From: Pseudeuparius sepicola
Lineage: Eukaryota; Arthropoda; Insecta; Coleoptera; Anthribidae
Reading direction: 5' to 3'
NCBI GenBank assembly: GCA_963920635.1
Contig: OY987305.1
Location: 11,323,153 to 11,387,152 of the forward strand
Length of the DNA: 64,000 nucleotides
Each line of letters begins with the position of its first letter. Position 1 is the first letter of the stretch. Positions 421 to 46,618 of the stretch are shown piece by piece. The position numbers were made by a program, and so were the translations under genes. The notes beneath the pieces were generated by a model. It ran no database searches. It had not been told where the DNA came from and saw only the letters and a program-made list of their open reading frames with translations.

Positions 421-3400
421 GTAAGTGTGTCTTATACTTTCTTAAGTTTTCTGTGTCTTAATTAAATCTGAAAGATACGTTAAAGAAGCTTCACATCCTA
501 ATGTTAGCTTTATCTCAGGGGCCATTCCTTGAAACAGATGGAGAGCCTCCATTTTTGAAACTAGAAGAGTTAAATGACCCTCGACATGCTCCCTACAAGT
601 ACATATTTAGACTCTGCTATAGAATTTTGAGGTTAAGCCAACAAGATTATCGAAAAAACCAAGAATACATTGCTAAACATTTCGGTTTCATGCAAAAACA
701 AATAGGCTACGATATTCTTGCCGAAGACACTATAACAGCTTTATTACACAACAATCGCAAGTTGCTCGAAAAACACATAACTCCCGCCGAAATTGAAACG
801 TTCGTAGGCTTAGTACGCAAAAACATGACAAGCTGGGAATCCCGATTTTTGGACTACCTGTCCGATTTGTGCATATCAAACAAGAAAGCTATTCCGGTTA
901 CGCAGGAACTAATATGCAAGAGCGTTCTTAGCCAAAAGAATTCAGACATACTTATCGAAACTCGAATGATGAAAACACAGGTTGAGCTTCAGGAATTGAA
1001 CGACGGTAACATATCAGAGAACGACGAAGAAATGGAGCATTTGATTGTGGTTGAAGAATGTCAGATTGTGCTCTTGTGGAACAATCGGCAGAAATCTAAA
1101 CCTTTAACCAATCTTTGTCGAAACGCAAAATTAGGAAGCAAAGAGGATCAAGGGATTCTCGATTACTACAGGCATCAGTTGGATTTGTACTCTAATATGT
1201 GTTTGAATAGACAGTATTTAGCTTTGAACAATCTGTCGCCTCATTTAGACATCGAGTTAATCTTGAAGTGTATGGCCGATGAAAACGTTACTTTTGATTT
1301 GAGAGCTTCGTTTTGCCGATTGATGTTGCATCTACATGTAGATCGAGATCCACAGGAGCCAGTTACGCCAGTAAAGTGTGCCAGGTTGTGGTCCGAAATA
1401 CCTTCACAGATGTCTATAAATGAGTAAGTGGAATAAGTATTGGCAGAAATAAATTATTTTTAAATTAACTTAATTATTACTAAATTACTAATACTAAGCG
1501 CAGTTATGCAATAAGCGTGTTCTTTTAGCTATGACGGTAATAAAACCCCAGATTCTAACAAAGAAGCTGTCCGTGCCAAATTTGCCTCGACAATATCATT
1601 TGTAGGAGGTTATCTGTGTAATGTAGTGGCCAAAATGTGGTCATTTGCTGACCCAGAGCAAAACAAGCTAACATTTGAGGTTAGTTTATTGCTCGAGGCG
1701 TGTGCCTTTCAGTTTTTGTATTTTGTTTTTTAGGTGGTGAAGTTGGCTAGAGAATTAATATATTTTGGCTTTTATAGTTTCGCAGATTTGCTTAAATTAA
1801 CAAAAACGTTGCTAAGTATTTTGGATTGTGTTTCTGAGAGTGACTTCTTGGATGGTCGGCCTCCAACTGGCGACATTAACTGTAAGTATGCGTATTTTCA
1901 AAGTCAAGTAAATTTAAATAATATTCTCATTCAGCTGGAGATACCAGACATGAAGAGAGAGGTATTTTTGTTTCTATAAATGTTGTTGATGTATTTGTGT
2001 GATATGTTTTGTACCTATACAGTGTTCTGCTTTTAAACTTTAACTACTTTAATCGGCGACTGAAAAAGTGGTATTTGAACACTGAGAACACTTAATAAAG
2101 GATATACAGGGTGTTTAAATTTATTTTTTAATAGGTTTTTACTGCTATCTCAGAAAAGACAAATGATATTAACAATGGATTGTACATTTTAAAAAGATAA
2201 TTGCTATCGAAAAAATGGGACATAGTAGGGTTGGTGCATGGTGACAATTCTGAATTAGAATTTGTTCGTAATTTCCCATGTAACTTGTTATTACTTGAAG
2301 CAGCAACACCAGCACCCATCTAAAAGCAAATATAATGGGTACTTAGTAACTGTGCGTATGCACCTAACCTAAAAATATCAAAATATATTTTAAAAAAGTT
2401 GACTGGCTTTACCTTGTTTCTTTCTTTTTTAGTAGCTTTGTTCTGTACAAGGTTCATTGTTTCTTTTACGTTTTGATATATACTGCCAAAAAATGCTTCT
2501 GCATTCGCTTGGCATTCGTACATTGTGCATGGCAAAATGCCTTTAAGTATTTACAGTTCCCAATTTATATTTTTAATACCTACATACATCTATAGGCTAT
2601 GCTAGTGAAACTCAAACTGTATAATATGCCAGGGATCAGGGAATAGTAGATGTAGAAAATTAGAACAAACCACTTTTCTTATTTTGTACATTCCCTCCAA
2701 GCCCAAATAACGTGTATACTGTAAAAAGTTTGAAATAAGAAGTAATGATGAAATAATGGTCAAATTTTGATTTTTTTTACTTAACCTCACTTTTATTTTA
2801 ACCAGGTAATTTTGAACTTTATTAATTTTGGTTAAAAAAGTAATTAACCTGAGTCGTTAACCGGACCCATCACTAGTAAAAATGCTTAAAACAAATTTTT
2901 CTGTTCCCACATGTACAGGGTGGTTCACTTTTATGTGGTAGGACTTTAACATTAGATAGAAAAAGATAATCTAAAATGAAAATTTTATATCAACATATAT
3001 CGGGGAAAGCTTAGTTTCCGAGATACAGGGCGTTGAAGTGTTGGAAAAAATATGAAGTATTTTTTACACTGTCCGAACCAGTGGAGATATTTAAACCAAA
3101 TTTGATGTGTAGTACCACCTTTTTGACTACGATATTTAGTGATAATATGAAGGTCCTGAAATAACCAGTGGTGGAGTTATGGGTTTTCACTATCACTAAA
3201 TTTAAAAAGTAATTAGTACGGACCTGTCTCACATCAACGTAATTTTTTTTTCCGTAAAGTTCTTTCAATTCTCTACAAAAAGTGTATCTTGACATTTTTT
3301 TGTATCTGCCACGGTTGTGTAGTAAATAAATTATTTCGTTTCCATCTCAGCCTTTTTTGCCTAAAAATGTGTTTTCTAAGATTATTGATAAATATCGCAA

Positions 3401-6400
3401 ATAACAGAAATTAATTATGGAACACTTATCGGATTCAGCTATTTTATTTTTAATTTTATGGAAACAATTTTAAAAATAAACTGGCACTTGGTTTGAGGTA
3501 CATTACTTTATTATCATTTTAACATTTTTATCAAATCTAGTATTATTTCTTAATAATTTTTATAATTCTAAATTTGTACAACATTCAACAATTGTTCAAA
3601 ATGTGATCCATTCTGTTGCACACATAATTCACTTCGACGCCTAACGGATTGAACAGCATCGATTAAATTGCCATTTCTCAATTCATCGCACGCATTTCTG
3701 ATACGATCAATAAGTTGTTCCCTTGTTTCTACAGGAGTCGCATAGACTTGTTCTTTTAAAAATCCCCATACGAAGAAGTCCAGAGGTGTTATGTCCGGAG
3801 AACGTGGAGGCCAAGCGACCGGTCCCCCTCGTCCGATCCACCTATTTGGAAAGTTATTATTTAACCAGTTCCTCACATTTCGGTGAAAATGTGCAGGACA
3901 GCCGTCAAGTTGGAACCAAGCCAACAATCTTAAGTTTAAAGGAATGTCTTCCCACATATTATTATGCTCAGCTACTAAAAACTCAAAAAAATTGTCACCA
4001 TTCACTCGCTGTGTATAGCTATATAGTATAGCTATGCCGGTACGAGCACACTTTCCCCATGTATTTCTTATGGGAGCAAAATCCTGCACTTTTTTGACCA
4101 AACTTACCCCCTCCACTCCCAAACCACGCCCCCCAGCCAATCGCACCGACTCTGAACCCTGCGATAGCCCGAGGGGTGCCGAAGATGTCCGAGTTCGCTG
4201 ACCTTCGCCCCTGCCGCGACCTTCGCGCGCTCGACTTTCTCCGGGGTGCCGAAGTGCCCGGCTTTCACCGACCGTTGACCTTCGCTCCAGCCGCGACATG
4301 TCGAGACTCGCAACTAATAAAAACCCTAAATCATAATTAAGCCATGACGTCCCCCTGTCGACCTTTAGCCGCGGCCATGCATGGATTTTTGCTACCACCT
4401 CTGCCTGCGTATTTTTGCGTCCGCGACGCCGAGACACGTCGAGACTCGCAACTAATAAAAACCTAACACCTATAGAAAAAATATCAGCTTGCAATATGTA
4501 CGTGATGTAATTCCGCTGAAAAAAAGTACTTTCTCTTTGTCGGAATAAGCGCCTATGAAACGAGCACGCTGATCTCATCGGTACTGGCGATAAACAATTT
4601 GTAGGAAAAGTGTAATAAAGAATAGATATGAGATACATATGAGTGTATACATTTTCTTGACTACATTACCTAAGGATGTATCAAAAATCTATCTTCCTAT
4701 ATTTAGAGACTGCTTCTCAAAGGAAAGTGGACATTACATTTGGGGCATAAATTAACCATTTTTAGTTGAGTTTATAACCATCTAGGTAAGTAAATTTCTT
4801 TAATTCCGAGAAAGCCAGGCCCTGTTTTAAATTACTTGACTAAAATATAATAGGTGCAAAGTTCACCAGTTTTTAAAAATATCCCGTCACACGATTATCA
4901 AGTTGAAAGACTAGCTGCAAAATCGGATTTTGTACAACGCGTTTCCTGTTTAAAATTTCACCCAGAAAAAAAAAAGGTACTAATTCTTACTTATGCCATG
5001 TTCACCGTATGATTTTTATACTATTCCGACTTCGAAAACCCAAAGGTATAAGTGTAGCGTGTAGAAAAAGGTGGAATTAAGGGTTTAAAACCCTTAAACG
5101 GTCTATATATGGAATAAAATGAGGGCATGCAACATGTTCTTCAATAATGAAAATTAAAACAATGTTCATTTTTGACTGTCCATTATCCTACCAAGAAAAA
5201 GCTTATAGCGTCTAAGCGACTATAAAAAAACGACTCTAAAAACGTCTAAACGACTCTAAAAAACGACTAGACGACTCGTAAAAACGACTAGACGATTCGA
5301 AAAACGACTAGACGATTCGGAAAAAACGACTAAACGACTCTGAAAACGACTAAACGATTCTGGAAAACGACTAGACGATTCGAAAAACGACTAGACGATT
5401 CGGAAAAAACGACTAAACAACTCTGAAAACGACTAAACGATTCTGGAAAACGACTAGACGATTCTGAAAAACGACTAGACGACTTGAAAAAGCGATATAC
5501 CATGGAATACCATCGAATACCATGAAATACCATCAAAGACCATGGAATACTATCGAAAACCACGGAATACCATAAATGGTCTTGGATATCCCTGTGAAAA
5601 AATTTGCCTCGGGGAGAGCATAAAAGGAAATTATCCGTGATCGATGCTCTGTGATCGAAAGATATATAAGCCTTTGATAATACAATCACTCTCAGTTAAA
5701 GACATGTTTTTGTCACTTGAGATTGAACCTAGGAGTTATGGTATCCAACACACCAATGACGGATTAGTCATGGGACAAATACCAGTAACTGTTGAAGATA
5801 ACGTATTATGTATTGGAGATCAAAATTACCCTTACACCAGGTCTGTCTCAACTGCTTTTGAAGAACAAACCACAAGGTATTAATGAGAGTGACCTAAAAA
5901 TATACAAACAATTGTTGATTACTAATTTTCGATAGGTTCAACAAATCAGGTTTTAAAAGTGTGTTTAGGTGCCTATGGTTTCATCTGGTATATGTTCCAT
6001 ACAGGATTCGAACATTAGCCCACATTCCAAAGCCAAACACTCGGCATTTATGTAAAATTCTAGGAAATGCTTGGCAGTGTGGTAATAATCTCGACGCGCT
6101 GTTGTAGCAGGGCTCCGCTGGCTCCCGCAGGCCTCGCCGGTCTCTGTAGACTCAGCAGGTCCCTTTAATGATGTGTACCGCAGGCTCCGATTAAATTAAA
6201 AAAATTACTATTAACACTAAAATACCCGGACAATAACCATCATTCCAACGCCAAAACACTCAACAGTAGTATTTCTGCGAATGCATCGCAGCCGGGCGCG
6301 GATGACTCACATCCGCTAGCCGGAACTTGTCAGGACAGGTTGACGACCTAAAAACAATTCTCTCTACTTAGATAAAAATAGAATGTCCAATAAGATTTTT

Positions 6401-9400
6401 TTCACACACTTTTATATATAAGCACAGATAACGTAACCATATAAGTATATATTAGAATATTATAAAATATTTAAGCCCCATATAGTTCGAATTTGAATGG
6501 GATATTATGTTACATGGGTAATATATCTCAACACTTCGTACACAAACAAAACTCGCTCGTTCTTTACAGTTTTATTACTGTGAATTCGGTACCTACTAAA
6601 GCGGCAGACTTGGGATGCAGCAGTAGCAAATACAATATGAAGCGCAGCTCTGATGTATACTAAAAATGTTATTATCAAACTTGAGACGCACACATATTTA
6701 AAAATATAAATACCGCCGGATGAATGCAAGGCCAATTTACGGAATATATAGCAAAACAATTAGATTAATATTAATTTCTTTAGGTAAAGGTAATAAACAT
6801 TTGATACTATCGACAGGAGTCTACGCAAAATAATTGTATCCGTATTCAGCAAATAAAAAAAGTTATGGGTACCCGTCACCGATGAAAAAGTATACAAAAC
6901 TGATAAAATGTTCATGGCATCTTGTATATTAAAATATTTAATCGCGTATCTAAGTTGTTATTTTATTCATTGCCTATCCCACAAATTTGGATTTTAGCTC
7001 TTGTAATCGCTCGATCACGATTGAAACTACACTCATAAAATGTTTAAAAAATGTCCATCCCACGTGATCGCTCGACAAAATCAAAACGTGCAAAGTGGCT
7101 ACTGCTCGAGGTTTGACCTTTGTCCTTAGGGACACGTGTGACCCAGTTGATGTAGAATCTAAAAAAAACCCTGTAAATCATACTTCCATAGCATAGAATC
7201 TAAAATCCCCCGGTACAGTACGGATGAAAATTTCAAACCAGGCATAATCAACATGTACGTTCAAAGTAAAAAAACTTGTCGGTCAACTGTTTAACCCCGA
7301 AATTTTGTTGATTTCTAGGAATAAAAAAGAAATACTGCGATTGTAAGTCCAAAGCTATTTACGCTATCAAATTCGTTTAAAATGCGAATGATAATTTGCC
7401 GCATTAAAACCAGGTGTGAAAAATTCAACATACATCCCTAAGAAGTTCAACCAATTTTACCCTGGAAATACAATATTTTTAATGAATAAAATATCGAACA
7501 TACAACAACACCCTTCTAAATATAGTATAAATCATGGTTTTTTTTTGATAATGTGGAAAGCTAAACTGAAAATTGTTGCTAGAGGTTCTACCGGGGTGCC
7601 AAAAATCAACTATTATTAGAAAATACGCTGATGTCATAATATAGCCGTCGATGTCACCGTTAGCGGTGTCCTATGAAAAATGCGTTCTGCTTAATAAGGT
7701 GTAAAAAATCCATGACGGGGCTTAGATAAATAAATAAAGTTTGATGTATGTGAAAGTATAGACTAAATTTTCGTATAGCCCGCGTGATCGCTCGAGGTGG
7801 CGGTATCCTCTGGACTAGAAAATATCATATCGGCTCAATCTCCAAACATTTTCATTTTGAATTATACGTTTTCATTGATGCTAGATATAGCAAGAAAATT
7901 GGACTGGACTCGATATGAGAGACATTAATCTAACTTTCACTAAACTGCACGTACTACTTAGAGGGTTGTAAGCCGTTTTAATAAAAGCACCAGACTTGCT
8001 TAAAATTCATGGCTAAACGTTAACATAATGTCATACAAACATGCGGCACGCAAAATATTAAGAATAGATATATGAGCTCAAACATGTTGATCAAAAATAT
8101 ATTAATTTCTGGCGATTTAGTTTAGCAGTTATCATCTAAAAACAAAACCTGGTCCCAATATTCAGTGAAAATAATAATTGAAAACTTTGAACCTTATAAA
8201 CCACCACTAAATAGCGAGTCGGAAAAAGTAAAAAAATATATATAAATATATTATTTTGATATTATAACCGAAACTGAATTTATTGGGGTGAAGATGTAAG
8301 GAAATATTTTTAGCTAGGAAAAAGTAATACAATTATCATAGGTACTGGTTGCAGAACCCGTTGTCAGTTTTGCAAGGATTTTTGATACAAATATAATTGC
8401 TAACGTTTAATTTGTTTACCCCATTTACGAAAATGATAACAAAATTGGATCAGACAAGATGTTTTTTCGAAGTATAGTTTTTAAACACAGGGTGCCACCA
8501 CCGGTTTTACGATATAGGTTTAAAAATGCGACGCAAATACATAAAAAAAAATACCCTAGAGATAAGAAAAAGAAAGATTCTTGGTGATGTATAAAAAGAA
8601 ATCAGGTTACATCTAATGCCCCAGACAGTAGAATAAACATCCCCGAGCGATGAGATATAACCAAACATCATTTTTCCAACGGCACAGTCATTTTCACGGG
8701 AAAAACAGCCAGTAACCGTTCAAATTCCATAGATAGATACTGCCGTAAATTTCACTGAACTACGCGTATCTATTATACTGAAGTAGGTATTGATACACTT
8801 CCATCTTTCCAAAGAAAAACAAACACGAAACTCAGACTTTTCATATATTACAACGCCTCGAGTCTTTGTGGCCACGACCGAGAATCTACTGAAGCAAGTG
8901 CGACGCATAGGACGTGAAAAGTGCCGAGTTGGTTTTATTAAACAATGAAACTTATACCTACGTATATATATAAAAGAAATGAGAAATATGCCAGAGATTT
9001 GAAACCTAATTGTGTTGCAAGTTTGAGGTCCAAAAAAATATTGGTTTTAATTTTTTAAGGTGAGAAACACATCTAACAACCAGTTTGGAAATATACAAGG
9101 CAAAAAAAAGTAGTGATGTGGCTGCCCCATTTTATGTTTTATACAGGTTGGATTATTTTAGAATAGTTGTTCAATAGATCGAGACAACATCATAAACGCT
9201 TCCCGTTAGAACAGAATCTGATGAAAAGAAAAATTCAATCTGGGTCAAGCTACTAGATAACCAAAATAAAAAATACTGAACGTTATAAAATTTAAAAAAA
9301 TCATATTTTCAACGGATTTTTATCCTCTGAAAATGGCGTAAAATTCAGTTTCACTGGGTCAAGCTAGGTGGTAACTATATAACCAAAATAAAAAAATACT

Positions 9401-12400
9401 GAACGTTATAAAATTAAAAAAATCATATTTTCATGGGATTTTTGTCCTCTGAAAATGACGCAAAATTCAGTTTCAATAAGTTACTAATTGAGGTAATAGG
9501 GGGAAAATCTTAAATAGGAATTCTGAGACAACGAGGCTGAGAGTAAATAACATACAAAAATCTTGTGCGTTGACTTTCAACTGAATTTAATAATTAGGTT
9601 TAATAACGACAATTTTCTCGATTATCTAGAATCAAAAATATTGCAAGTGACAATTCACTATTTTCTCGACATTATGTAAAGCCTTATTATTGCGTCGTAA
9701 ATTAAAAGATCCAAAAATATTGGCATCAATTGTTTAGTAAATGTGATTAAAATATGTCTACTTTATCAACAGTTATTTGTAACAGCTTATTATCTTGGAA
9801 GCGTAAACTCTTTGAATTTTTTAGACAAAAAGTTGTAGTTTAATAATGGTCAGTTGGATTCCTTTTTGAATCATGTTTGCGTATTACCTACAAGGATTTA
9901 CAACCTCCAAACATAGAAATCGCTCATTTTAACCCGATTTAATAAAAATTTCACCAAAAACAATACTTTCAGTCATATACACTTCTGAATAATAAAAAAA
10001 GGCACTATAGTAATAATGAGATTTCCAATGGAATTTTTATAGACTGTTTGCACATTTTGAGAGTCTGTTTGCTAGCTTTTGGGGGTATTCCTTGATATTT
10101 TAGACAGATAAAAATGAATAACATTGGGTTTCCTAACTAAAATACAAAACGCACTGTTGACTTTACTTCCGTGGATAGTAAGCCTATAATACATATCGAA
10201 AACAGAGAAATATTCAGGTCAAGAAAAAAGTAGCCTAATTTACAAGTTTGGGAATCAAAAACTACCTTTTGTCTTTTAATTTTGATGAGAAATACGTCTA
10301 ATTCGTAAGTCAAATAAATGGGACATCATGAAAGATATACTAATAATTGAACAAATGCTATCTCAGTTCTATAGACACAAAGGTACTATGGGTAGTAATA
10401 GTTTTGGGATCAAAAGACAAGCTTTTAAATTTGTTAAGAAAATACGTCTAATGAAATTGAAAGTAGTAACTAGATTTTGGTTAACATTTCGTTAACGCGT
10501 TGATGAATGTTTGATGCAAGTGAAAAGTAGATCGAATTTCCAAAAAACGGTGACTGACCAAACAAGTTATTATAAAAAGTTGCTCAGGAGACCGATGTAA
10601 CCTAGAAAACGCCTTTCCTTCGAATAGAAAGTGGCATAAATAGTTACAAAATGGGACTTAGACGGATATTCGATGCAAGTGAAAAGTAGGCAGAATTTTC
10701 GAAAATCGGACGGATCAAAAATTATTAAGTTGATCGGGAGGTTGAGATAACCTATGAAACGCCTTTCATTCGAATAGAATCTGACAAAAAAAAATCCAAG
10801 AAAATTTTAGACGACTGTTTGCAAGTGAAAAGTATACAGATTTTTGTCGAAAACCGGCGACTGACAAAAAAAAAAAACTTATTAGAAAATTTTGCTCGGG
10901 AGACCGAGGTAACCTAGAAAACGCCTCTCGTCCGAATATAATCTGAAATAAAATTCCATGATGGAGACTTAGGCGAATGTTTGATGCAAGTGAATAGTAT
11001 AGACCGAATTCCCGAAAAAAAAAACGCCATTCGTTTTGAATATAATAAAAAAATCGAATAAGGAACGGGACTTATTAGACGAATATTTGATGCAAGTGGA
11101 AAAGTATAGATAGATTTTTTCGAGTGACTGATAAAAATAGTTAGTCAGAAGGCCCCCAGATAACTAACATTGATATTTTGTTTGAACAAAATCTGTAAAA
11201 AAAATGCCAAGACGTGACTTAGACGAATGTTTGCAAGTGAAAAAAAAATGACTGATAAAAATAGTTAGTCGGAAGGCCCCCCAGATAACATTGATATTTT
11301 GTTTGAACAAAATCTGTAAAAAAAAATGCCAAGACGTGACTTAGACGAATGTTTGCAAGTGAAAAAAAAAACAAAAAAAATTATTAGAAAAGTTGACCGG
11401 AAGGTTTAACCTAGGAAACGCCTTTCATTCGAATAGAATATGACAAAAAAAAAATCCGAGACGTGACTTAGACGAATGTTTGCAAGTGGAAAAAAAAAAC
11501 AAAAGAATTATTAGAAAAGTTGATCGGAAGGTTTAACCTAGGAAACGCCTTTCATTCGAATAGAATATGACAAAAAAAATCCGAGACGTGACTTAGACGA
11601 ATGTTTGCAAGTGAAAAAGAAACAAAAAATTATTAGAAAAGTTGATTGGGAGGCCGAGGTAACCTAGGAAACACCTTTCATTCGAATAGAATGTAACAAA
11701 AAAAAAATTCCAAGACGTGACTTAGACGAATGTTTGCAATGAAAAGCATACAGATTTTTTTTTTCGAAAAACGACGGCTGATCAAAAGTTATTAGAAAAG
11801 TTGTGCGGGGCCGTGGTACCTAGGAAACACCTTTCATTCAAACAAAATGCGACAAAAAAAATTTAGACATAGATGAATAAGAATGCAAGGACGATTGGAG
11901 TGATCTATAACCCTAAACAGAAGGGAGAAAATGCCCCTCAATAAGTCGAAATTTGTGTGTTTTCCATATGATTCAATGAGATTTTTGCAAATTATTGGAA
12001 ACTTAATGACGTGAGAAAAATAAAACGTCCATTGTCTGCTCACATTTTAGGAAATTTATCACAATTTATTCTAATTAATAATACCCTTTGTTTATGGAAT
12101 CCCTAGTTAGCCAATGTGTCATGAGTAAGTATATGACAGGTCAAATACGTATATAATGTAAAGTAAAAATATAGTTAACAAGGCGTTAACGAGCATTGAC
12201 AACATGTTAACGAACGAGGTGCTAACAACGCGATAACTTAACTTTGACAACTCGTTAACGAAGCGTTGACGAGTGTGGACCCTCCAAATCTTAGGAGATA
12301 CATTCGCAACCTTACACCGGATCACGCGTCACAAAGATGCTACCTTAAATTAATGCGTTGACAACTCGTTAATCCCAGGAGATACAATCGCAACTTACAC

Positions 12401-15400
12401 AGATCAAACTCAACTGTGGAATCCTGTGACGTCACAGAGATGCTACCTTACAGTTCTTTTAGGTAGATAACCTAACCTAACATTATTGTCGTGGTGTCCA
12501 AGAGGTTAGCGACTGGTGAACCGATTGCCATTGATCAAAACTGACTTAATCCGCCTCTGATACACCTCCCACAAATCCCTCCCCGCACAACTTTTCTAAT
12601 AACTTTTGATCAGCCGTCGTTTTTCGAAAAAAAAAATCTGTATGCTTTTCATTGCAAACATTCGTCTAAGTCACGTCTTGGAATTTTTTTTTTGTTACAT
12701 TCTATTCGAATGAAAGGTGTTTCCTAGGTTACCTCGGCCTCCCAATCAACTTTTCTAATAATTTTTTGTTTCTTTTTCACTTGCAAACATTCGTCTAAGT
12801 CACGTCTCGGATTTTTTTTGTCATATTCTATTCGAATGAAAGGCGTTTCCTAGGTTAAACCTTCCGATCAACTTTTCTAATAATTCTTTTGTTTTTTTTT
12901 CCACTTGCAAACATTCGTCTAAGTCACGTCTCAGATTTTTTTTTTGTCATATTCTATTCGAATGAAAGGCGTTTCCTAGGTTAAACCTTCCTGTCAACTT
13001 TTCTAATAATTTTTTTTGTTTTTTTTTTCACTTGCAAACATTCGTCTAAGTCACGTCTTGGCATTTTTTTTTACAGATTTTGTTCAAACAAAATATCAAT
13101 GTTATCTGGGGGGCCTTCCGACTAACTATTTTTATCAGTCATTTTTTTTTTTCACTTGCAGACATTCGTCTAAGTCACGTCTTGGCATTTTTTTTACAGA
13201 TTTTGTTCAAACAAAATATCAATGTTAGTTATCTGGGGGCCTTCTGACTAACTATTTTTATCAGTCACTCGAAAAAATCTATCTATACTTTTCCACTTGC
13301 ATCAAATATTCGTCTAATAAGTCCCGTTCCTTATTCGATTTTTTTATTATATTCAAAACGAATGGAGTTTTTTTTTTCGGGAATTCGGTCTATACTATTC
13401 ACTTGCATCAAACATTCGCCTAAGTCTCCATCATGGAATTTTATTTCAGATTATATTCGGACGAGAGGCGTTTTCTAGGTTACCTCGGTCTCCCGAGCAA
13501 AATTTTCTAATAAGTATTTTTTTTTTGTCAGTCGCCGGTTTTCGACAAAAATCTGTATACTTTTCACTTGCAAACAGTCGTCTAAAATTTTCTTGGATTT
13601 TTTTTTGTCAGATTCTATTCGAATGAAAGGCGTTTCATAGGTTATCTCAACCTCCCGATCAACTTAATAATTTTTGATCCGTCCGATTTTCGAAAATTCT
13701 GCCTACTTTTCACTTGCATCGAATATCCGTCTAAGTCCCATTTTGTAACTATTTATGCCACTTTCTATTCGAAGGAAAGGCGTTTTCTAGGTTACATCGG
13801 TCTCCTGAGCAACTTTTTATAATAACTTGTTTGGTCAGTCACCGTTTTTTGGAAATTCGATCTACTTTTCACTTGCATCAAACATTCATCAACGCGTTAA
13901 CGAAATGTTAACCAAAATCTAGTTACTACTTTCAATTTCATTAGACGTATTTTCTTAACAAATTTAAAAGCTTGTCTTTTGATCCCAAAACTATTACTAC
14001 CCATAGTACCTTTGTGTCTATAGAACTGAGATAGCATTTGTTCAATTATTAGTATATCTTTCATGATGTCCCATTTATTTGACTTACGAATTAGACGTAT
14101 TTTCTCATCAAAATTAAAAGACAAAAGGTAGTTTTTGATTCCCAAACTTGTAAATTAGGCTACTTTTTTCTTGACCTGAATATTTCTCTGTTTTCGATAT
14201 GTATTATAGGCTTACTATCCACGGAAGTAAAGTCAACAGTGCGTTTTGTATTTTAGTTAGGAAACCCAATGTTATTCATTTTTATCTGTCTAAAATATCA
14301 AGGAATACCCCCAAAAGCTAGCAAACAGACTCTCAAAATGTGCAAACAGTCTATAAAAATTCCATTGGAAATCTCATTATTACTATAGTGCCTTTTTTTA
14401 TTAATCAGAAGTGTATATGACTGAAAGTATTGTTTTTGGTGAAATTTTTATTAAATCGGGTTAAAATGAGCGATTTCTATGTTTGGAGGTTGTAAATCCT
14501 TGTAGGTAATACGCAAACATGATTCAAAAAGGAATCCAACTGACCATTATTAAACTACAACTTTTTGTCTAAAAAATTCAAAGAGTTTACGCTTCCAAGA
14601 TAATAAGCTGTTACAAATAACTGTTGATAAAGTAGACATATTTTAATCACATTTACTAAACAATTGATGCCAATATTTTTGGATCTTTTAATTTACGACG
14701 CAATAATAAGGCTTTACATAATGTCGAGAAAATAGTGAATTGTCACTTGCAATATTTTTGATTCTAGATAATCGAGAAAATTGTCGTTATTAAACCTAAT
14801 TATTAAATTCAGTTGAAAGTCAACGCACAAGATTTTTGTATGTTATTTACTCTCAGCCTCGTTGTCTCAGAATTCCTATTTAAGATTTTCCCCCTATTAC
14901 CTCAATTAGTAACTTATTGAAACTGAATTTTGCGTCATTTTCAGAGGACAAAAATCCCATGAAAATATGATTTTTTTAATTTTATAACGTTCAGTATTTT
15001 TTTTATTTTGGTTATATAGTTACCACCTAGCTTGACCCAGTGAAACTGAATTTTACGCCATTTTCAGAGGATAAAAATCCGTTGAAAATATGATTTTTTT
15101 AAATTTTATAACGTTCAGTATTTTTTATTTTGGTTATCTAGTAGCTTGACCCAGATTGAATTTTTCTTTTCATCAGATTCTGTTCTAACGGGAAGCGTTT
15201 ATGATGTTGTCTCGATCTATTGAACAACTATTCTAAAATAATCCAACCTGTATAAAACATAAAATGGGGCAGCCACATCACTACTTTTTTTTGCCTTGTA
15301 TATTTCCAAACTGGTTGTTAGATGTGTTTCTCACCTTAAAAAAAATTAAAACCAATATTTTTTTGGACCTCAAACTTGCAACACAATTAGGTTTCAAATC

Positions 15401-18400
15401 TCTGGCATATTTCTCATTTCTTTTATATATATACGTAGGTATAAGTTTCATTGTTTAATAAAACCAACTCGGCACTTTTCACGTCCTATGCGTCGCACTT
15501 GCTTCAGTAGATTCTCGGTCGTGGCCACAAAGACTCGAGGCGTTGTAATATATGAAAAGTCTGAGTTTCGTGTTTGTTTTTCTTTGGAAAGATGGAAGTG
15601 TATCAGTACCTACTTCAGTATAATAGATACGCGTAGTTCAGTGAAATTTACGGCAGTATCTATCTATGGAATTTGAACGGTTACCGGTTGTTTTTCCCGT
15701 GAAAATGACTGTGCCGTTGGAAAAATGATGTTTGGTTATATCTCATCGCTCGGGGATGTTTATTCTACTGTCTGGGGCATTAGATGTAACCTGATTTCTT
15801 TTTATACATCACCAAGAATCTTTCTTTTTCTTATCTCTAGGGTATTTTTTTTTATGTATTTGCGTCGCATTTTTAAACCTATATCGTAAAACCGGTGGTG
15901 GCACCCTGTGTTTAAAAACTATACTTCGAAAAAACATCTTGTCTGATCCAATTTTGTTATCATTTTCGTAAATGGGGTAAACAAATTAAACGTTAGCAAT
16001 TATATTTGTATCAAAAATCCTTGCAAAACTGACAACGGGTTCTGCAACCAGTACCTATGATAATTGTATTACTTTTTCCTAGCTAAAAATATTTCCTTAC
16101 ATCTTCACCCCAATAAATTCAGTTTCGGTTATAATATCAAAATAATATATTTATATATATTTTTTTACTTTTTCCGACTCGCTATTTAGTGGTGGTTTAT
16201 AAGGTTCAAAGTTTTCAATTATTATTTTCACTGAATATTGGGACCAGGTTTTGTTTTTAGATGATAACTGCTAAACTAAATCGCCAGAAATTAATATATT
16301 TTTGATCAACATGTTTGAGCTCATATATCTATTCTTAATATTTTGCGTGCCGCATGTTTGTATGACATTATGTTAACGTTTAGCCATGAATTTTAAGCAA
16401 GTCTGGTGCTTTTATTAAAACGGCTTACAACCCTCTAAGTAGTACGTGCAGTTTAGTGAAAGTTAGATTAATGTCTCTCATATCGAGTCCAGTCCAATTT
16501 TCTTGCTATATCTAGCATCAATGAAAACGTATAATTCAAAATGAAAATGTTTGGAGATTGAGCCGATATGATATTTTCTAGTCCAGAGGATACCGCCACC
16601 TCGAGCGATCACGCGGGCTATACGAAAATTTAGTCTATACTTTCACATACATCAAACTTTATTTATTTATCTAAGCCCCGTCATGGATTTTTTACACCTT
16701 ATTAAGCAGAACGCATTTTTCATAGGACACCGCTAACGGTGACATCGACGGCTATATTATGACATCAGCGTATTTTCTAATAATAGTTGATTTTTGGCAC
16801 CCCGGTAGAACCTCTAGCAACAATTTTCAGTTTAGCTTTCCACATTATCAAAAAAAAAAAACCATGATTTATACTATATTTAGAAGGGTGTTGTTGTATG
16901 TTCGATATTTTATTCATTAAAAATATTGTATTTCCAGGGTAAAATTGGTTGAACTTCTTAGGGACGTATGTTGAATTTTTCACACCTGGTTTTAATGCGG
17001 CAAATTATCATTCGCATTTTAAACGAATTTGATAGCGTAAATAGCTTTGGACTTACAATCGCAGTATTTCTTTTTTATTCCTAGAAATCAACAAAATTTC
17101 GGGGTTAAACAGTTGACCGACAAGTTTTTTTACTTTGAACGTACATGTTGATTATGCCTGGTTTGAAATTTTCATCCGTACTGTACCGGGGGATTTTAGA
17201 TTCTATGCTATGGAAGTATGATTTACAGGGTTTTTTTTAGATTCTACATCAACTGGGTCACACGTGTCCCTAAGGACAAAGGTCAAACCTCGAGCAGTAG
17301 CCACTTTGCACGTTTTGATTTTGTCGAGCGATCACGTGGGATGGACATTTTTTAAACATTTTATGAGTGTAGTTTCAATCGTGATCGAGCGATTACAAGA
17401 GCTAAAATCCAAATTTGTGGGATAGGCAATGAATAAAATAACAACTTAGATACGCGATTAAATATTTTAATATACAAGATGCCACGAACATTTTATCAGT
17501 TTTGTATACTTTTTCATCGGTGACGGGTACCCATAACTTTTTTTATTTGCTGAATACGGATACAATTATTTTGCGTAGACTCCTGTCGATAGTATCAAAT
17601 GTTTATTACCTTTACCTAAAGAAATTAATATTAATCTAATTGTTTTGCTATATATTCCGTAAATTGGCCTTGCATTCATCCGGCGGTATTTATATTTTTA
17701 AATATGTGTGCGTCTCAAGTTTGATAATAACATTTTTAGTATACATCAGAGCTGCGCTTCATATTGTATTTGCTACTGCTGCATCCCAAGTCTGCCGCTT
17801 TAGTAGGTACCGAATTCACAGTAATAAAACTGTAAAGAACGAGCGAGTTTTGTTTGTGTACGAAGTGTTGAGATATATTACCCATGTAACATAATATCCC
17901 ATTCAAATTCGAACTATATGGGGCTTAAATATTTTATAATATTCTAATATATACTTATATGGTTACGTTATCTGTGCTTATATATAAAAGTGTGTGAAAA
18001 AAATCTTATTGGACATTCTATTTTTATCTAAGTAGAGAGAATTGTTTTTAGGTCGTCAACCTGTCCTGACAAGTTCCGGCTAGCGGATGTGAGTCATCCG
18101 CGCCCGGCTGCGATGCATTCGCAGAAATACTACTGTTGAGTGTTTTGGCGTTGGAATGATGGTTATTGTCCGGGTATTTTAGTGTTAATAGTAATTTTTT
18201 TAATTTAATCGGAGCCTGCGGTACACATCATTAAAGGGACCTGCTGAGTCTACAGAGACCGGCGAGGCCTGCGGGAGCCAGCGGAGCCCTGCTACAACAG
18301 CGCGTCGAGATTATTACCACACTGCCAAGCATTTCCTAGAATTTTACATAAATGCCGAGTGTTTGGCTTTGGAATGTGGGCTAATGTTCGAATCCTGTAT

Positions 18401-21400
18401 GGAACATATACCAGATGAAACCATAGGCACCTAAACACACTTTTAAAACCTGATTTGTTGAACCTATCGAAAATTAGTAATCAACAATTGTTTGTATATT
18501 TTTAGGTCACTCTCATTAATACCTTGTGGTTTGTTCTTCAAAAGCAGTTGAGACAGACCTGGTGTAAGGGTAATTTTGATCTCCAATACATAATACGTTA
18601 TCTTCAACAGTTACTGGTATTTGTCCCATGACTAATCCGTCATTGGTGTGTTGGATACCATAACTCCTAGGTTCAATCTCAAGTGACAAAAACATGTCTT
18701 TAACTGAGAGTGATTGTATTATCTATCACGGATAATTTCCTTTTATGCTCTCCCCGAGGCAAATTTTTTCACAGGGATATCCAAGACCATTTATGGTATT
18801 CCGTGGTTTTCGATAGTATTCCATGGTCTTTGATGGTATTTCATGGTATTCGATGGTATTCCATGGTATATCGCTTTTTCAAGTCGTCTAGTCGTTTTTC
18901 AGAATCGTCTAGTCGTTTTCCAGAATCGTTTAGTCGTTTTCAGAGTTGTTTAGTCGTTTTTTCCGAATCGTCTAGTCGTTTTTCGAATCGTCTAGTCGTT
19001 TTCCAGAATCGTTTAGTCGTTTTCAGAGTCGTTTAGTCGTTTTTTCCGAATCGTCTAGTCGTTTTTCGAATCGTCTAGTCGTTTTTACGAGTCGTCTAGT
19101 CGTTTTTTAGAGTCGTTTAGACGTTTTTAGAGTCGTTTTTTTATAGTCGCTTAGACGCTATAAGCTTTTTCTTGGTAGGATAATGGACAGTCAAAAATGA
19201 ACATTGTTTTAATTTTCATTATTGAAGAACATGTTGCATGCCCTCATTTTATTCCATATATAGACCGTTTAAGGGTTTTAAACCCTTAATTCCACCTTTT
19301 TCCACACGCTACACTTATACCTTTGGGTTTTCGAAGTCGGAATAGTATAAAAATCATACGGTGAACATGGCATAAGTAAGAATTAGTACCTTTTTTTTTC
19401 TGGGTGAAATTTTAAACAGGAAACGCGTTGTACAAAATCCGATTTTGCAGCTAGTCTTTCAACTTGATAATCGTGTGACGGGATATTTTTAAAAACTGGT
19501 GAACTTTGCACCTATTATATTTTAGTCAAGTAATTTAAAACAGGGCCTGGCTTTCTCGGAATTAAAGAAATTTACTTACCTAGATGGTTATAAACTCAAC
19601 TAAAAATGGTTAATTTATGCCCCAAATGTAATGTCCACTTTCCTTTGAGAAGCAGTCTCTAAATATAGGAAGATAGATTTTTGATACATCCTTAGGTAAT
19701 GTAGTCAAGAAAATGTATACACTCATATGTATCTCATATCTATTCTTTATTACACTTTTCCTACAAATTGTTTATCGCCAGTACCGATGAGATCAGCGTG
19801 CTCGTTTCATAGGCGCTTATTCCGACAAAGAGAAAGTACTTTTTTTCAGCGGAATTACATCACGTACATATTGCAAGCTGATATTTTTTCTATAGGTGTT
19901 AGGTTTTTATTAGTTGCGAGTCTCGACGTGTCTCGGCGTCGCGGACGCAAAAATACGCAGGCAGAGGTGGTAGCAAAAATCCATGCATGGCCGCGGCTAA
20001 AGGTCGACAGGGGGACGTCATGGCTTAATTATGATTTAGGGTTTTTATTAGTTGCGAGTCTCGACATGTCGCGGCTGGAGCGAAGGTCAACGGTCGGTGA
20101 AAGCCGGGCACTTCGGCACCCCGGAGAAAGTCGAGCGCGCGAAGGTCGCGGCAGGGGCGAAGGTCAGCGAACTCGGACATCTTCGGCACCCCTCGGGCTA
20201 TCGCAGGGTTCAGAGTCGGTGCGATTGGCTGGGGGGCGTGGTTTGGGAGTGGAGGGGGTAAGTTTGGTCAAAAAAGTGCAGGATTTTGCTCCCATAAGAA
20301 ATACATGGGGAAAGTGTGCTCGTACCGGCATAGCTATACTACTATGGTTGTACAGTCCAATCCAAACATTGACACTAAATTCGACCTCAAAATTTCTTGT
20401 CCGGATTGCATGTGGGTTTTCTTGTGCCCAAATATGCTGATTATGAAGGTTTGCTACTCCACGACGAGTAAAACACGACTCGTCCGTCCATAAAATGTTA
20501 TTTAAAAATTGTCTATTTCCTTCAATTGACTCCAAAATCCATCGGCAAAACACTAATCTTCTTTCTGCATCGCCGGGCCTTAAACCTTGTACGGGTTGTA
20601 GATGATACGCATGCCTGTGATCTCTTTTTAAAGCTCGCAAAATTGCAGACTTTGAAACACGTAGGGCCACTGACACTCTTCTGCTACTTGTTGTAGGATT
20701 CCTATCGAATTCACGAAGAATCTCATTGTTGCGTCTGACTTGTTGGATATTGTTTTCATTTCCTCGTTCGACGATTCTAGTTCTCAGACCGCGAGTTCTG
20801 AATTGCCGGGGCATGTTAACAAACACCGAGGGACGCGGATGGCGCCTATTTGGAAATCGCCTCCGGTATTCTCTGGCTGCTTCCGCAGAGTTCCCATTTG
20901 CAACTCCATAGCAGAAATGGATGTCAGCCTGCTCTTCATTTGTAAATTGGAACGGCATTTTAATTATTAACAAAGACAAACTGCGGCGCTGCTACGTTCA
21001 TCTACTGGATGACAGATTATTGTATTATTAACTGTCAATAAGATTTTCTTTTCCATGGCACACTTATCTTCACCAGTACGGCGATGCAGAAAGGACATTA
21101 GTATTTTGCCGATGGATTTTGTAGTCAAAGGAAATAAGACAATTTTTAAATAACATTTTATGGGCGGAAGAATCATGTTTTACTCGTCGTGGTATAATTT
21201 AGAATTCTACAAATTTAGAATTATAAAAATTATTAAGAAATAATACAGATTTGATAAAAATGTTAAAATGATAATAAAGTAATGTACCTCAAACCAAGTG
21301 CCAGTTTATTTTTAAAATTGTTTCCATAAAATTAAAAATAAAATAGCTGAATCCGATAAGTGTTCCATAATTAATTTCTGTTATTTGCGATATTTATCAA

Positions 21401-21957
21401 TAATCTTAGAAAACACATTTTTAGGCAAAAAAGGCTGAGATGGAAACCAAATAATTTATTTACTACACAACCGTGGCAGATACAAAAAAATGTCAAGATA
21501 CACTTTTTGTAGAGAATTGAAAGAACTTTACGGAAAAAAAAATTACGTTGATGTGAGACAGGTCCGTACTAATTACTTTTTAAATTTAGTGATAGTGAAA
21601 ACCCATAACTCCACCACTGGTTATTTCAGGACCTTCATATTATCACTAAATATCGTAGTCAAAAAGGTGGTACTACACATCAAATTTGGTTTAAATATCT
21701 CCACTGGTTCGGACAGTGTAAAAAATACTTCATATTTTTTCCAACACTTCAACGCCCTGTATCTCGGAAACTAAGCTTTCCCCGATATATGTTGATATAA
21801 AATTTTCATTTTAGATTATCTTTTTCTATCTAATGTTAAAGTCCTACCACATAAAAGTGAACCACCCTGTATATTTGTCCTTCTCTTTACAATCCACAGA
21901 ATGGATAATTAATCAATTTCAGGTAACCGAACGGCTGTGATTTCATATCCATCTCAG

Positions 21958-30900: not shown

Positions 30901-33900
30901 AGGGCGACGTACTTCGAAATTCTTTATTAGCGCGGTACTTCGGAAAGACATTCGTTCAGAGTAACGAGACAGTTACTCTCGGAAACCATCAGCCTTTGAA
31001 TGTTACTCATGGTCCTGGAGGTAAGAAGAAGCAGCCCCTTTATTATTTGCCAAAAGTTAAAAAACTCTTCATTTTATAAAATTATCTTATCCAGCTCTAT
31101 TAATTTTTAATAATTTTCTGGTGGCACCATCTCCATGGAATACAAAACTTATGATCATAATACATAATAATAATTATGCGGCACAATGTTCAAGTTAAGC
31201 CTATATTGACTAACCATGCGACAAATTTTAGCAAAAATGCTGAAACGGGCTGGTCGCACCCTCCACGAAGTGCAAACACATTTGAACAGAGAAGGCGCTT
31301 CAGATTTAGTCGTGGAACTTGTAATAAAATCCGGAAACTGTCCATCGATATTTGTTGAAGCCGTCGAATTAGGTATTGCACTTCTCGAAGGAGGGAATCC
31401 TATAATTCAGCAGAGCATCAACAAATTGTTGGAGGGCGAGTTTAGTCAGTCATTTTTTAAGGTAAATTTCATTGCTTATAGTTAGCAGATACTTGTGATT
31501 GACTTCTTGACTAATTAGTTGCCTGAAAGTGCACGGATACTCTAGTACTTTTAGGATTTTAGTGGTAAAATCCATAACTGTCAGGAAAGAATAATTATTT
31601 ATGTACCAAGGCACTGAAGTTCAACTTTTTATGACTCATGTGGAATTTAGTTGCCGAGGCCTCTGGTTGAGGCAAATAAACCACATGAGTCATAAAAAGA
31701 ACTTCAGTGACGAGGTACATATTATACTTTTTTTTTTTAATCGAAAAAAAAATGTTTTATTAGGCAAGAAAATAATCATAATGGATCACCCGCCCATAAA
31801 CCGACTGCGCGCGGCGTTGCTTGACTTTGACGATCGCTCTATCTCAGGCGCGGTCATATCCATTTGCGAAGGGGGGGGGCATACCTGGCTATGTACTTCT
31901 TTAGGCGGTTTTTAATTACCTACTAAAAATAACAATAAAACTTCAATAAGGCTATATCACAAAAAAATATATTCCTCACAAAAATAACAAAAATAAAAAA
32001 TATATATTTTAAATAAAAATTATGTAAAAAATTGTTTTGCATGTGCGTTGGTTATATACAGTGTACAGATTGAGTTCACATAAGGTGAAAATAACAAAAA
32101 AAATTCGAGTTGAAATTTGAGCTTTTGGTTTTAAACTAATTTGTGACATAATTTTACTTTCGAAAAATCACATAAGTATGCCTTGGAAATTATGAAGAAA
32201 CTAATTTTCCACCTCAGTAAAGTGCATTTTTGGTAGGTATTACAGCAAAATGTTATTAAGGAAACTTGTTCAGAATGACAAGCTGAGTAGGTTTGCGAAA
32301 TTGCGAAAGTATAGAGCTATATTTTGATTTTTTTGCATTTTCACACTTTTTTAGAAAAGTGCATTTTGTATAGTTTTTACATCAAAATTTTATTAAGAAA
32401 ACTTATTGACAATGAAAAACTGGATAGGTGCGAACAATTTTAAAAGCCTAAGTCGACTTTGATTTTCTCCGCTACAAAATTAAAACGCACCTGGGCAGTT
32501 TTTCATTGATAACAAGTTTTCTTAAAAAAAAGTTGGAAAAATGCGAAAAATTCAAAGTATAGGCCTATAGACTTTCAAAATTTCGCAAACCTACTCAGTA
32601 TTTCATTCTGAACAAGTTTCCTTAATAACATTTTGCCATAAAACCTACAAAAACGGCACTTTACTGATGTGGAAAATTAATTTCTTCATAATTTCCAAGG
32701 TGATTTTTCGAAAGTAAAATTATAATAATAATAATAACATAACTTTATTTAGCAAGATGCTATACAATATACATTTTTTTGTGGACACTGTAGTTTAGAT
32801 AATATTAGTAATAATATTGGTATCTATTTTTTATTATTTTTTTTTTCATTTTATTAGGGGGGGGCATGGACCCCATGCCCCCCCCCCCCTAAGACCGCGC
32901 CTGCTCTATCTAGGCCAAGTATGATAAGGCACGGGAAAACCAAACTGCTGTTTGTTGTGCAGCCTCCATAACAAATCTGTTGATATTCAAACCTACTAAA
33001 ATATTTATATTGAAAGATTGCGCTGTTATAGGTAACAATTTTGCAATGTGTACGAAAAGTTAAATGGGCCTTTATTGACCGGATTTTGAATATATGGACA
33101 CTTTTGAAGGGCGATGGCTCCACGTCTGACGTTTAGATGTTTACATCTCACCAAGGCCTACTTATTGAAAAAATCGTACAATAATGGTATACTTCAGTGC
33201 TGATTTCTGAGCTTTTAATCACGATTTAGAGACACTTCACTGCCGATTTCAAGAAAAATATTTTTATCGTTACATTTTTATTTTCATAACTGAAAAAAAA
33301 ACTCTGCCAGTTGAATAACTATTTCCTCTGCATTTTTTGTTAAATCCATTTTGTAATAATATGGGGTCATCATAAAGTAAGGGATATACTTTAATGACTG
33401 TAATGTCTTATATAATTTGACGAATATAAGGGGGTAGCAAAAAGTAAATGGAATCTAGTTGCTTCAATAATTGGATTTTACTGTAACTATGGGAAGCAAA
33501 GGAGTTGTAGTATCAACTGCTGACACAAGTGACAAACATCATCAATTTAGAGAAGACATTTTGTAATTTCATGGCCACCAAGAGCGCCCAACAGCGCTGG
33601 AAGATTGAAAAGATTCTATTAGGGAGCAAATTCTATAAAGCAGCAAAATGGATGACATATCAAACATTTGCGTTAACCACTGTTGGACATAAGAAATCCC
33701 ATTATTTAAGCAATCGAATGTCTTTCATATCCTGTTAACTTAAGCCGGTATTACACTTGTCAATTTCTTCGTCAATAAATTGTTCAATAAATTGGCCAAG
33801 AAATTGTAGATAATGTGATATGTTTTACACCATCAATAAATTGGTCAATTTATTGTGCAATTTCAATACTACCAACATGAAAGCACAAATATGCAAACAA

Positions 33901-43530: not shown

Positions 43531-43917
43531 GTGTACAGTACACGTGCGCGTGGTGATTCAACATTTTTTCGATCTGTAGTGAGCAGCACGCATAATTTTG
43601 AACTTTTGGCACAGATTAGTATTCTGTGCTTTTGGTCAATTCAAAATTTAAGTTGGATTATTCTCTATGTACTTATAATAATTTATAAGTAAATAAGTAC
43701 TTTGGAAAGACTTCAAACAAACGCTTAGAGGTAAATATTTTAAATTAATTTAAAAATTACTTAGATTAAAATTTTATATTGACCAAAAGCATTGATTAAG
43801 GTGAATTCCTTATTCAATGCCAAAAGTTTAAAATTATGCGTGTTGCTCACTACACATCGAAACAAAACATGTTATGGGTCAAAATGTTGAATCAGCACGT
43901 ACGTGCTGTACGTTTAT
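43526..43917. mobile_element. Inverted-repeat MITE, about 390 bp
   Basis: GTAAACGTGTACAG... on the left pairs with CTGTACGTTTAT on the right. Internal matches include GATTCAACATTTT, TGTAGTGAGCA and CACGCATAATTTT in inverted copies. No coding sequence. Confidence 0.65.
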
Positions 43918-44567: not shown

Positions 44568-45640
44568 GTAAAAAGGGTTATCTTTGCAAATGTTTTAATT
44601 GAATTAGGTACCCCTGGCGAACTTATTTCGTCCGCCCTGGCAACACGCGCACGTTACACAGGTCGACTGGGAATAGCAACCCTTCCGTTAGTCGTGTAAT
44701 GACAACGCCTGGTTTTAACGATTGGCTGGTAAATAGCCACATTTATTGCGTATTTGGTGCCGCAGAAATATTGATAACATTTTACTAGCAGCGTTAACAC
44801 TAATTAATTTTTTATATACCTTTGAATTTGCGTCTCGAATAATTTGATACAACGCCGAGGCCGCGAATTTGCACAAAACCCTTTTATTTCGGACGAATTT
44901 TACGTAAAAAATCTGTACTTACTAACAAACTAAGTAGCTATTGCATTTTGTTATTAAGTACGTGTATCATTAGATATTCTTAATCACTATCTTCTTACAA
45001 AAGTGAATTCTAAATTTTGTTTTGAAAACATTCCCAAGAAAAATATAACAGCCGGCAAAATTTGTTATCTTTATGGATAAGCCGTGTCTAATAAGTATAC
45101 ATATTATAGCTAGCTCAAGACTTATCTAATGTAAATACACCTACATTTTGCAAATCTAGATTAGAGATTTTACTAAATACCTAACACTATAATATAAATA
45201 TGTTAAAGTCATGGAATCTTTCAAACTTTGCTGTAACATACAAATTAAACGCACACGAATTTTTAATTATATGCTTTCAAAGTCTCATCAATAAAATTAC
45301 TATAAGGATTCTCAATAATTGAAAGTTGCTCAACAGCTGGAGTCTAATTATAAAATTACACAGCTTTATTTGTTTTCTTTTTCAAATGAACGTCTCTATT
45401 TCTCATATTTACAGTTTCCAAATTTATTTCCAGATAGGTATAACCGCGAGATTATACCTATACCTATTATTCTGTTTGATAAAATGTTCCTCTTGTGGAG
45501 GGTGTTGTTTTGGCAGATTTAGATACCTACATTTAGAATCGAACTGCCCAATCATCATATTTATATAATTATAAAACACATTTCAGTTTATATTGTCCCT
45601 TTTCAAGGAACTGTCACGTTCGCATCAGCGCGAGTCTATA

Positions 45641-46613
45641 CAGGGTGATTCAGTTCCGGTGCTCCGCATATGGGGATCTCGGAAACCGTAACAGATACGA
45701 AGTCGGTCAAATAGAGGCAAACTTGCGCCTTTAGGCGCCTAACAATATGCCGTTGAGAAAGTTAAAATATTTTCATGGGTTGCTGGGATATTTAAGAAAA
45801 ACCGAATTTTTGAAAATTAGATTTTATTTTATTCTGGGGCCATTTGCTATAATACTGAAAAATAAATTAAACTTTTTCATTGCAACTTTTTCTGGACTAC
45901 GTTGTGGTATTTTTAGATTTTCGGGGCGACGTTTCGTTTTTGAGATAGAGAGATCATCTTTTTTTTTAAATACGATCCTGTACTTTTTATTGCATATTTC
46001 GAAATGAATCGTTGTTCTGAGTACAACGATATATGACACATACATATTTTTTCTCGTTTTATCTGCTAAAATGCACATTTACTAAGAAAAAAATTAATAC
46101 GGTCCTGGACTATGCATTGGAATAGCTTTGAAAAAAAGAGAGAAAAATGCATAGTCCAAGACCGTATTAATTTTTTTCTTAGTAAATGTGCATTTTAGCA
46201 GCTAAAACGGGAAAAAATATGTATGTGTCATACATCGTTGTACTCAGAACAACGATTCATTTCGAAATATGCAATACAAAATCCAGGTCCGTATTTAAAA
46301 AAATGAAGATGATCAATCTATCTCAAAAACGAAACGTGGCCCCGAAAATCTAAAAATACCACGACGTAGTCCAGAAAAAGTTGCAATGAAAAAGTATAAT
46401 TTATTTTTCAATATTATCGCAAATGGCCCCAGAAAAAAATAAAATCTAATTTTCAAAAATTCGGTTTTTCTTAGATATCTCAGCAACCCATGAAAATATT
46501 GTTAGGCATATTGTTAGGCGCCCAAAGACGCAAGTTTGCCTCCATTTGACCGACTTCGTATCTGTTACGGTTTCCAAGATCCCCATGTTGAGCACCGGAA
46601 CTGAATCACCCTG
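45641..46613. mobile_element. CAGGGTG hairpin element, 973 bp
   Basis: The two halves are reverse complements about a centre near 46127, starting CAGGGTGATTCAGTTCCGG and ending CCGGAACTGAATCACCCTG, with TATA on both sides. Nearly the whole element is stem. A related half copy (GGGGATCTCGGAAACTATAA) lies at 53037-53100. Confidence 0.9.
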
Positions 46614-46618
46614 TATAC

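Follow-up and report, generated by a model that had tools for sequence, protein, structure and literature searches.

A giant palindrome in the genome of the beetle Pseudeuparius sepicola belongs to a family of mobile elements very probably derived from Mavericks/Polintons

A 64,000-nucleotide stretch of the genome of Pseudeuparius sepicola (Coleoptera, Anthribidae; contig OY987305.1, positions 11,323,153 to 11,387,152, hereafter the window) carries a palindrome of about 16.3 kb. This palindrome is a member of a family of mobile elements, and the family very probably derives from Mavericks (also called Polintons). When the window is compared with itself by BLAST, positions 12581-20354 pair in inverted orientation with 11810-4012 over 7,809 columns, with 99.2% identity, 16 mismatches and 9 gap openings. 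The largest difference within the arms, according to a MAFFT alignment, is a 33-bp insertion or deletion (indel) at 5641. The original prediction of a near-perfect palindrome with 7.8-kb arms and few differences thus holds. Its limits, first placed at 4024 and 20341, were corrected to 4022 and 20343 by comparison with other copies.

The self-comparison, the MAFFT alignment and the other copies delimit both arms. The left arm (4022-11810, forward strand) extends from the left end to the point where pairing with the right arm stops, and the right arm (12581-20343, reverse strand) ends in ...GCTATACTACT. The unpaired middle of 770 bp, initially viewed as a unique spacer, consists of 723 bp of left inner arm (11811-12533, forward strand) and of a central asymmetric loop of about 42-44 bp (12534-12577, forward strand). 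The inner arm is paired in other copies and its counterpart in the right arm of the window copy is deleted. Hence, the middle is a deletion scar and not a functional unique centre. Judged by the other copies, the true end of the element is AGTAGTATAGCTATGCCGG. In the window copy, the outermost left bases are TA in place of AG, and the right end keeps the AGTAGT motif followed by the 6-bp target sequence ATGGTT (20344-20349), which has no matching partner on the left side. The target site duplication (TSD) of the family is 6 bp long and is not the TA that the ends had been said to adjoin. A second TATAGCTAT lies in the left flank beside the altered end (4010-4022) and is perhaps an end-templated filler or the trace of a later small rearrangement.

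On the forward strand, the left arm carries a 20-21-bp unit repeated in tandem about 12 times (5230-5491), a putatively coding 58-aa open frame (5704-5877) preceded by TATA-like and initiator-like sequences recognized by eye, and, at its inner end, degenerate tandem repeats with a unit of about 122-127 bp (10507-11861, mirrored about 12589-13885). As predicted, no intact gene was found: a Pfam search of the 26 stop-to-stop open reading frames (ORFs) of at least 60 aa in the left arm and centre gave no match at E<=0.01. No PolB, rve integrase or capsid ORF is present among the ORFs of the left arm and centre, and we therefore use the term "derivative" instead of Maverick in the full sense. The 58-aa frame has no homologue in a protein search and no Pfam match at E<=0.05; the idea that it is a remnant of the 351-aa protein of the Maverick nested in copy d (see below) was unsupported (BLASTP E=3.5). 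Furthermore, blastn with a distant setting of one arm against a phage collection and an Rfam scan of the window gave no match.

The palindrome is inserted within the transposase frame of a DUF4817 mariner-like element. The terminal inverted repeats (TIRs) of this host element (2908-3581, forward strand, and 21205-21877, reverse strand) are 99.3% identical over 674 columns in the window self-comparison. The insertion interrupts a reverse-strand transposase, whose N-terminal part (20350-20979) matches DUF4817 and, weakly, HTH_Tnp_Tc3_2; its C-terminal part (3568-4011), taken from the ORF list, was assigned by eye and has no Pfam match. A PDB search with the N-terminal ORF gave no match. Parts of an IP3-receptor-like gene lie on both sides of the mariner-like element (RIH upstream; RIH, RIH_assoc and Ion_trans downstream). 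In addition, the same gene region contains six smaller full palindromes resembling miniature inverted-repeat transposable elements, which are self-inverted at 66-90% (window 32148-32723, 43564-43865, 45637-46617, 53316-54393, 55702-56647 and 59312-60122).

A 377-bp end was used as query against the window's own 769-Mb assembly, and 40 of 876 candidates were scored. All 40 match with 91-100% identity, either over 359-380 bp or starting at position 7. They form at least 18 inverted pairs (36 ends, including the window) and four single ends. The span of the pairs has a median of 16.9 kb and extremes of 10.4 and 53.8 kb, and it lies between 15 and 17.5 kb in 12 of the 18; the longer pairs that were read inside (copies b, c, d and e) have arms broken up by other sequence. 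In each of the 17 pairs outside the window, both ends were read together with their flanking sequence. An identical 6-bp TSD was found by script in 14 of them and by hand in copy d (ATGGTA, the script having taken the end of a nested Maverick), which brings the perfect TSDs to 15; in the other two (j and n), five of the six bases are alike. AGTAGT is present at both ends in 15 of the 17 pairs, d and j reading AGTAGG. The expectation of a real mobile element was borne out.

Other elements have inserted into members of this family. Among the single ends, L061 corresponds to a Gypsy-type element nested in one arm (L061:1226-7960) that encodes a reverse transcriptase, an integrase and a Baculo_F envelope-like ORF; L060 shows a full palindrome centre. 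Near-identical Tc1-like transposase ORFs of 337 aa are nested in arms of copies c and e (L014:5362-6375 and L023:3846-4859).

The centre was considered in 17 copies, including the window copy (W), the stretches taken for t and n falling short of it. The arms reach a short loop in 11 of the 17. This loop is a single unit of about 42 bp in seven copies and a doubled unit in four (b, c, f and g), and in most cases CCATTG/CAATGG lies on either side of it; the centre has undergone deletions in W, a, d and q. The undamaged element is thus about 17.1 kb long, and its two arms of about 8.5 kb meet head to head at the loop of about 42 bp. Since the loop is common to these copies, it points to one origin of the family and not to a separate origin for each copy.

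Mavericks are described as encoding a protein-primed PolB and a retroviral-like integrase, and those of vertebrates as having a 6-bp TSD, (AGT)2//(ACT)2 ends and an intact length of 16,862 +/- 1,678 bp (PMC8097293). The palindrome family has the last three traits: a 6-bp TSD, AGTAGT...ACTACT ends and an undamaged length of about 17 kb. Moreover, a gene-bearing Maverick of about 17.3 kb is nested in one arm of copy d (C3:37230577-37284391). It is flanked by the TSD ATTATC and has TIRs of at least 1.83 kb, the compared piece ending there, at 99.0% identity. Its ORFs match a double jelly-roll protein, an A32-like ATPase, an rve integrase and a BIR+RING protein (IAP), and another is weakly similar to the adenovirus protease adenain (E=0.007, below the Pfam cut-off). 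A 1,014-aa ORF has an Endonuclease_7 match and was labelled PolB from motifs seen by eye, an identity that searches of Pfam, PHROGs and PDB did not return. The named relatives of the integrase, among the best 120 of 1,841, come from the beetles Exocentrus, Cryptolaemus, Harmonia and Euwallacea or bear a generic label.

This nested Maverick and the palindrome share their terminal 11 bp, AGTAGTATAGC, and diverge beyond, one Maverick having been compared. In addition, arm positions 1083-1295 (window 5106-5318, forward strand) match the nested Maverick with 81% identity over 238 columns (E=1.7e-60), from within the final ten codons of the IAP gene into the spacer that precedes the ATPase gene. IAP residues 165-171 of 174 are identical between the two. 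Arm positions 1070-1205, which are mostly non-repeat, are identical to the nested Maverick at 111 of 138 columns (E=3e-34); further arm matches, up to position 1468, are tandem-repeat units, and units similar to the 20-21-bp repeat of the arm occur in the Maverick spacer.

Several results count against this derivation. The nested Maverick matches the arm outside positions 1083-1468 in a single 35-bp stretch (E=0.009). Weak tblastn matches of 12 Maverick ORFs to the arm (E from 0.2 to 5) were discarded, the reversed arm giving matches as good (E from 0.13 to 5). A Maverick with more than 11 bp of the palindrome end, which would be a candidate for the direct parent, was not found. Finally, the window copy itself has no matching TSD. 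Taken together, the data nevertheless make a Maverick origin of the family very probable. The claim of an unknown class and an undescribed element family is partly upheld: the class can be named as Maverick/Polinton, and no paper describing a palindromic Maverick or Polinton was found in titles or abstract beginnings among the matches listed, nor with exact phrases. The proposed genome search for other copies and an autonomous relative recovered both the copies and a gene-bearing Maverick, and it decided the class.

The two arms of a copy are very similar to each other. Arms were compared over 13 segments chosen to stay clear of tandem repeats and of nested insertions. These segments amount to 4.7-5.6 kb in seven copies and to 1.0 kb in g; the duplicated inner arms of copy d were excluded from the totals, the segment count and the tree. 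Divergence between the arms of one copy is 0.02-0.47%. Divergence between different copies is 0.35-1.86% among the seven well-sampled ones, and it ranges from 0.19% (c-g) to 4.6% (e-h) when g and h, for which only the end was sampled, are added. In seven of eight copies, the distance between the two arms is smaller than the average distance of the copy to any other copy. In a maximum-likelihood tree, the two arms of a copy group together with a support of 100 for W, a, d, e and f. Furthermore, end subtypes are concordant at both ends in 17 of 18 copies, compared with a mean of 4.2 and a maximum of 12 in 100,000 shuffles.

Other observations weaken this pattern. Copy c is an exception (0.26% within the copy versus 0.19% to g, over 1 kb sampled). 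The ranges overlap, within-copy divergence reaching 0.47% (e) and between-copy divergence going down to 0.19% (c-g), 0.29% (a-h) and 0.35% (W-a). The arm pair of b has a support of 65, c and g are not separated in the tree, and the end subtypes of copy f differ. Segment by segment, with many segments containing few differences, the partner arm is strictly closest in 62 of 170 cases, tied in 69 and not closest in 39. As a whole, the comparison shows that the arms have been homogenised, before or after insertion, in line with the recent origin or gene conversion between arms put forward in the original prediction. One-arm insertions and centre deletions persist, so that large differences are not converted away.

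We consider it likely that the family is a non-coding, non-autonomous "snap-back" derivative of a Maverick/Polinton, which became a full-length palindrome, is copied by protein priming and is integrated in trans. The snap-back and protein-primed part of this explanation, which we infer, is somewhat better than an even bet. While copying a Maverick from one end, a protein-primed polymerase would have switched to the opposite strand, yielding an inverted dimer of one end. Each end of the palindrome would then be both a replication origin and an integrase site. The Maverick polymerase and integrase could thus copy and insert the palindrome in trans, in the way that a helper virus serves a defective-interfering genome. 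The displaced strand might fold on itself into a hairpin. Mismatch repair in this hairpin, or gene conversion in the chromosome, would keep the arms alike, and centre deletions occurring after insertion, such as that of the window copy, would stabilise the palindrome.

A chimera bears on the template switching supposed here. At L059 (about C7:48539870), the first 1.7 kb of the arm is fused to a whole 1.2-kb palindrome (L059:1780-2974) that is 98.6% self-identical, with related ends, AGTAGATAGGCTATG, and a different centre. GTACTT flanks the composite on both sides. Since this single TSD surrounds the whole, the two parts of the composite probably entered the chromosome together, a switch from one element to another having joined them beforehand. 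The chimera is consistent with template switching and with a palindrome having arisen a second time.

Palindromes carrying PolB genes are also present in the assembly. A search with the PF03175 profile gave 152 PolB matches from 87 scored of 1,839 candidates, among which six inverted pairs with outer spans of 5-15 kb were noticed by eye and two were read. Both are 15-kb palindromes with PolB in both arms: C5:31295471-31310982 (L065 and L066; 99.97% over 6,483 bp, its 2,546-bp centre block containing 16 asymmetric positions) and C7:27329855-27344753 (L067 and L068; 99.1% over 5,408 bp). The left-hand loci L065 and L067 each contain one ORF of at least 150 aa (1,261 and 1,237 aa, respectively). 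These palindromes suggest that palindrome formation recurs, and the two may represent another palindromic protein-primed lineage. The further inverted pairs are C3:42016954/42028194, C3:44255499/44260540, C11:39471801/39479224 and C2:74764059/74779479. The same 1,254-aa open frame is found in at least 20 PolB matches, 12 of them with the same score, which suggests a recent burst of a single Maverick-type family.

Given the C5 and C7 palindromes, with PolB in both arms and one long ORF in each left-hand locus, the non-coding palindromes might be Maverick-derived and yet depend on separate PolB-bearing palindromes as helpers, forming a protein-primed replicon lineage of their own. We regard this as unlikely. 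No DNA similarity to the family arm was found in the four loci, except where a non-coding member of the family has inserted at the edge of the C7 palindrome; their outer sequences are unlike AGTAGT, and no integrase is present in the ORFs listed.

Somewhat less probable still is a Foldback-type cut-and-paste DNA transposon (Galileo, FB or Mutator-like), with long repetitive inverted ends moved by a DDE transposase, the comparison drawn in the original prediction. Very long inverted repeats, internal tandem repeats, the lack of genes and the many copies would all suit such an element, and Galileo and Tetris have been called Foldback-like. However, P-like Galileo makes 8-bp TSDs, and the 6-bp TSD and AGTAGT ends are those of Mavericks. 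The ends, the TSD, the size and the shared 11-bp end and IAP-ATPase stretch tie the family to Mavericks/Polintons rather than to Foldback elements.

Single-arm elements could also have been made palindromic in the chromosome by breakage and fold-back repair. In yeast, inverted duplications have been proposed to arise, among other ways, through fold-back priming at breaks (PMC10622511). Such dimerisation after insertion is very improbable: TSDs enclose the whole palindrome in all 17 pairs outside the window (15 perfect, two with a mismatch) and a similar loop recurs in 11 of 17 copies, which indicates that the palindrome was inserted as such. Palindromes are a known product of hairpin-adapter reads, and an assembly artefact made of hairpin-read chimeras was rejected, like dimerisation, on pair count, individual TSDs and the recurring loop, being barely credible given that the 18 pairs are spread over several contigs, that the 17 that were read differ in their flanks and have a TSD each, and that a 33-bp indel and substitutions separate the window arms.

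Mavericks are thought to replicate by protein priming, and there is little chromosomal record of how they do so. If the snap-back explanation is true, an element without genes, reduced to two origins and two integrase sites, would lend itself naturally to testing which sequences are sufficient for Maverick copying and insertion, and the family would be a chromosomal counterpart of defective-interfering genomes. More tentatively, and with rather less confidence than in the explanation itself, animal genomes may harbor selfish chromosomal DNA of a class found solely in the form of giant palindromes. These would be protein-primed replicons, encoding PolB only or non-coding, whose arms would be reset at each cycle by a hairpin stage and which would parasitise Mavericks for their integration in the manner of defective-interfering genomes. 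As a speculation, very long hairpin transcripts from such palindromes could feed insect RNA silencing.

Among known systems, Galileo and Foldback elements differ from the palindrome family by their P-superfamily transposase, their ends and their TSD. They resemble it by their very long, internally repetitive inverted repeats, as described in PMC4168063 and PMC3573991. Ginger2 has an integrase related to that of Polintons, but it is reported to generate a 4-bp TSD and to have TGTNR ends (PMC2836005). Compared with Mavericks/Polintons, the palindromes have no recognisable genes, their centre is palindromic and their inverted repeat covers almost the entire element, versus the 46-1,447 bp given for Mavericks in PMC8097293. 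The 6-bp TSD, the (AGT)2//(ACT)2 ends, the length of about 17 kb, the inverted termini and the 11-bp terminus of the resident Maverick are alike. Parvoviruses replicate by a rolling-hairpin mechanism. Among them, adeno-associated virus is described as making snapback defective genomes, which are likewise fold-back dimers of one genome end that have lost most genes (PMC8235507). Unlike these subgenomic forms found in parvovirus particles (PMC8235507), the palindromes of P. sepicola are a chromosomal family with TSDs.

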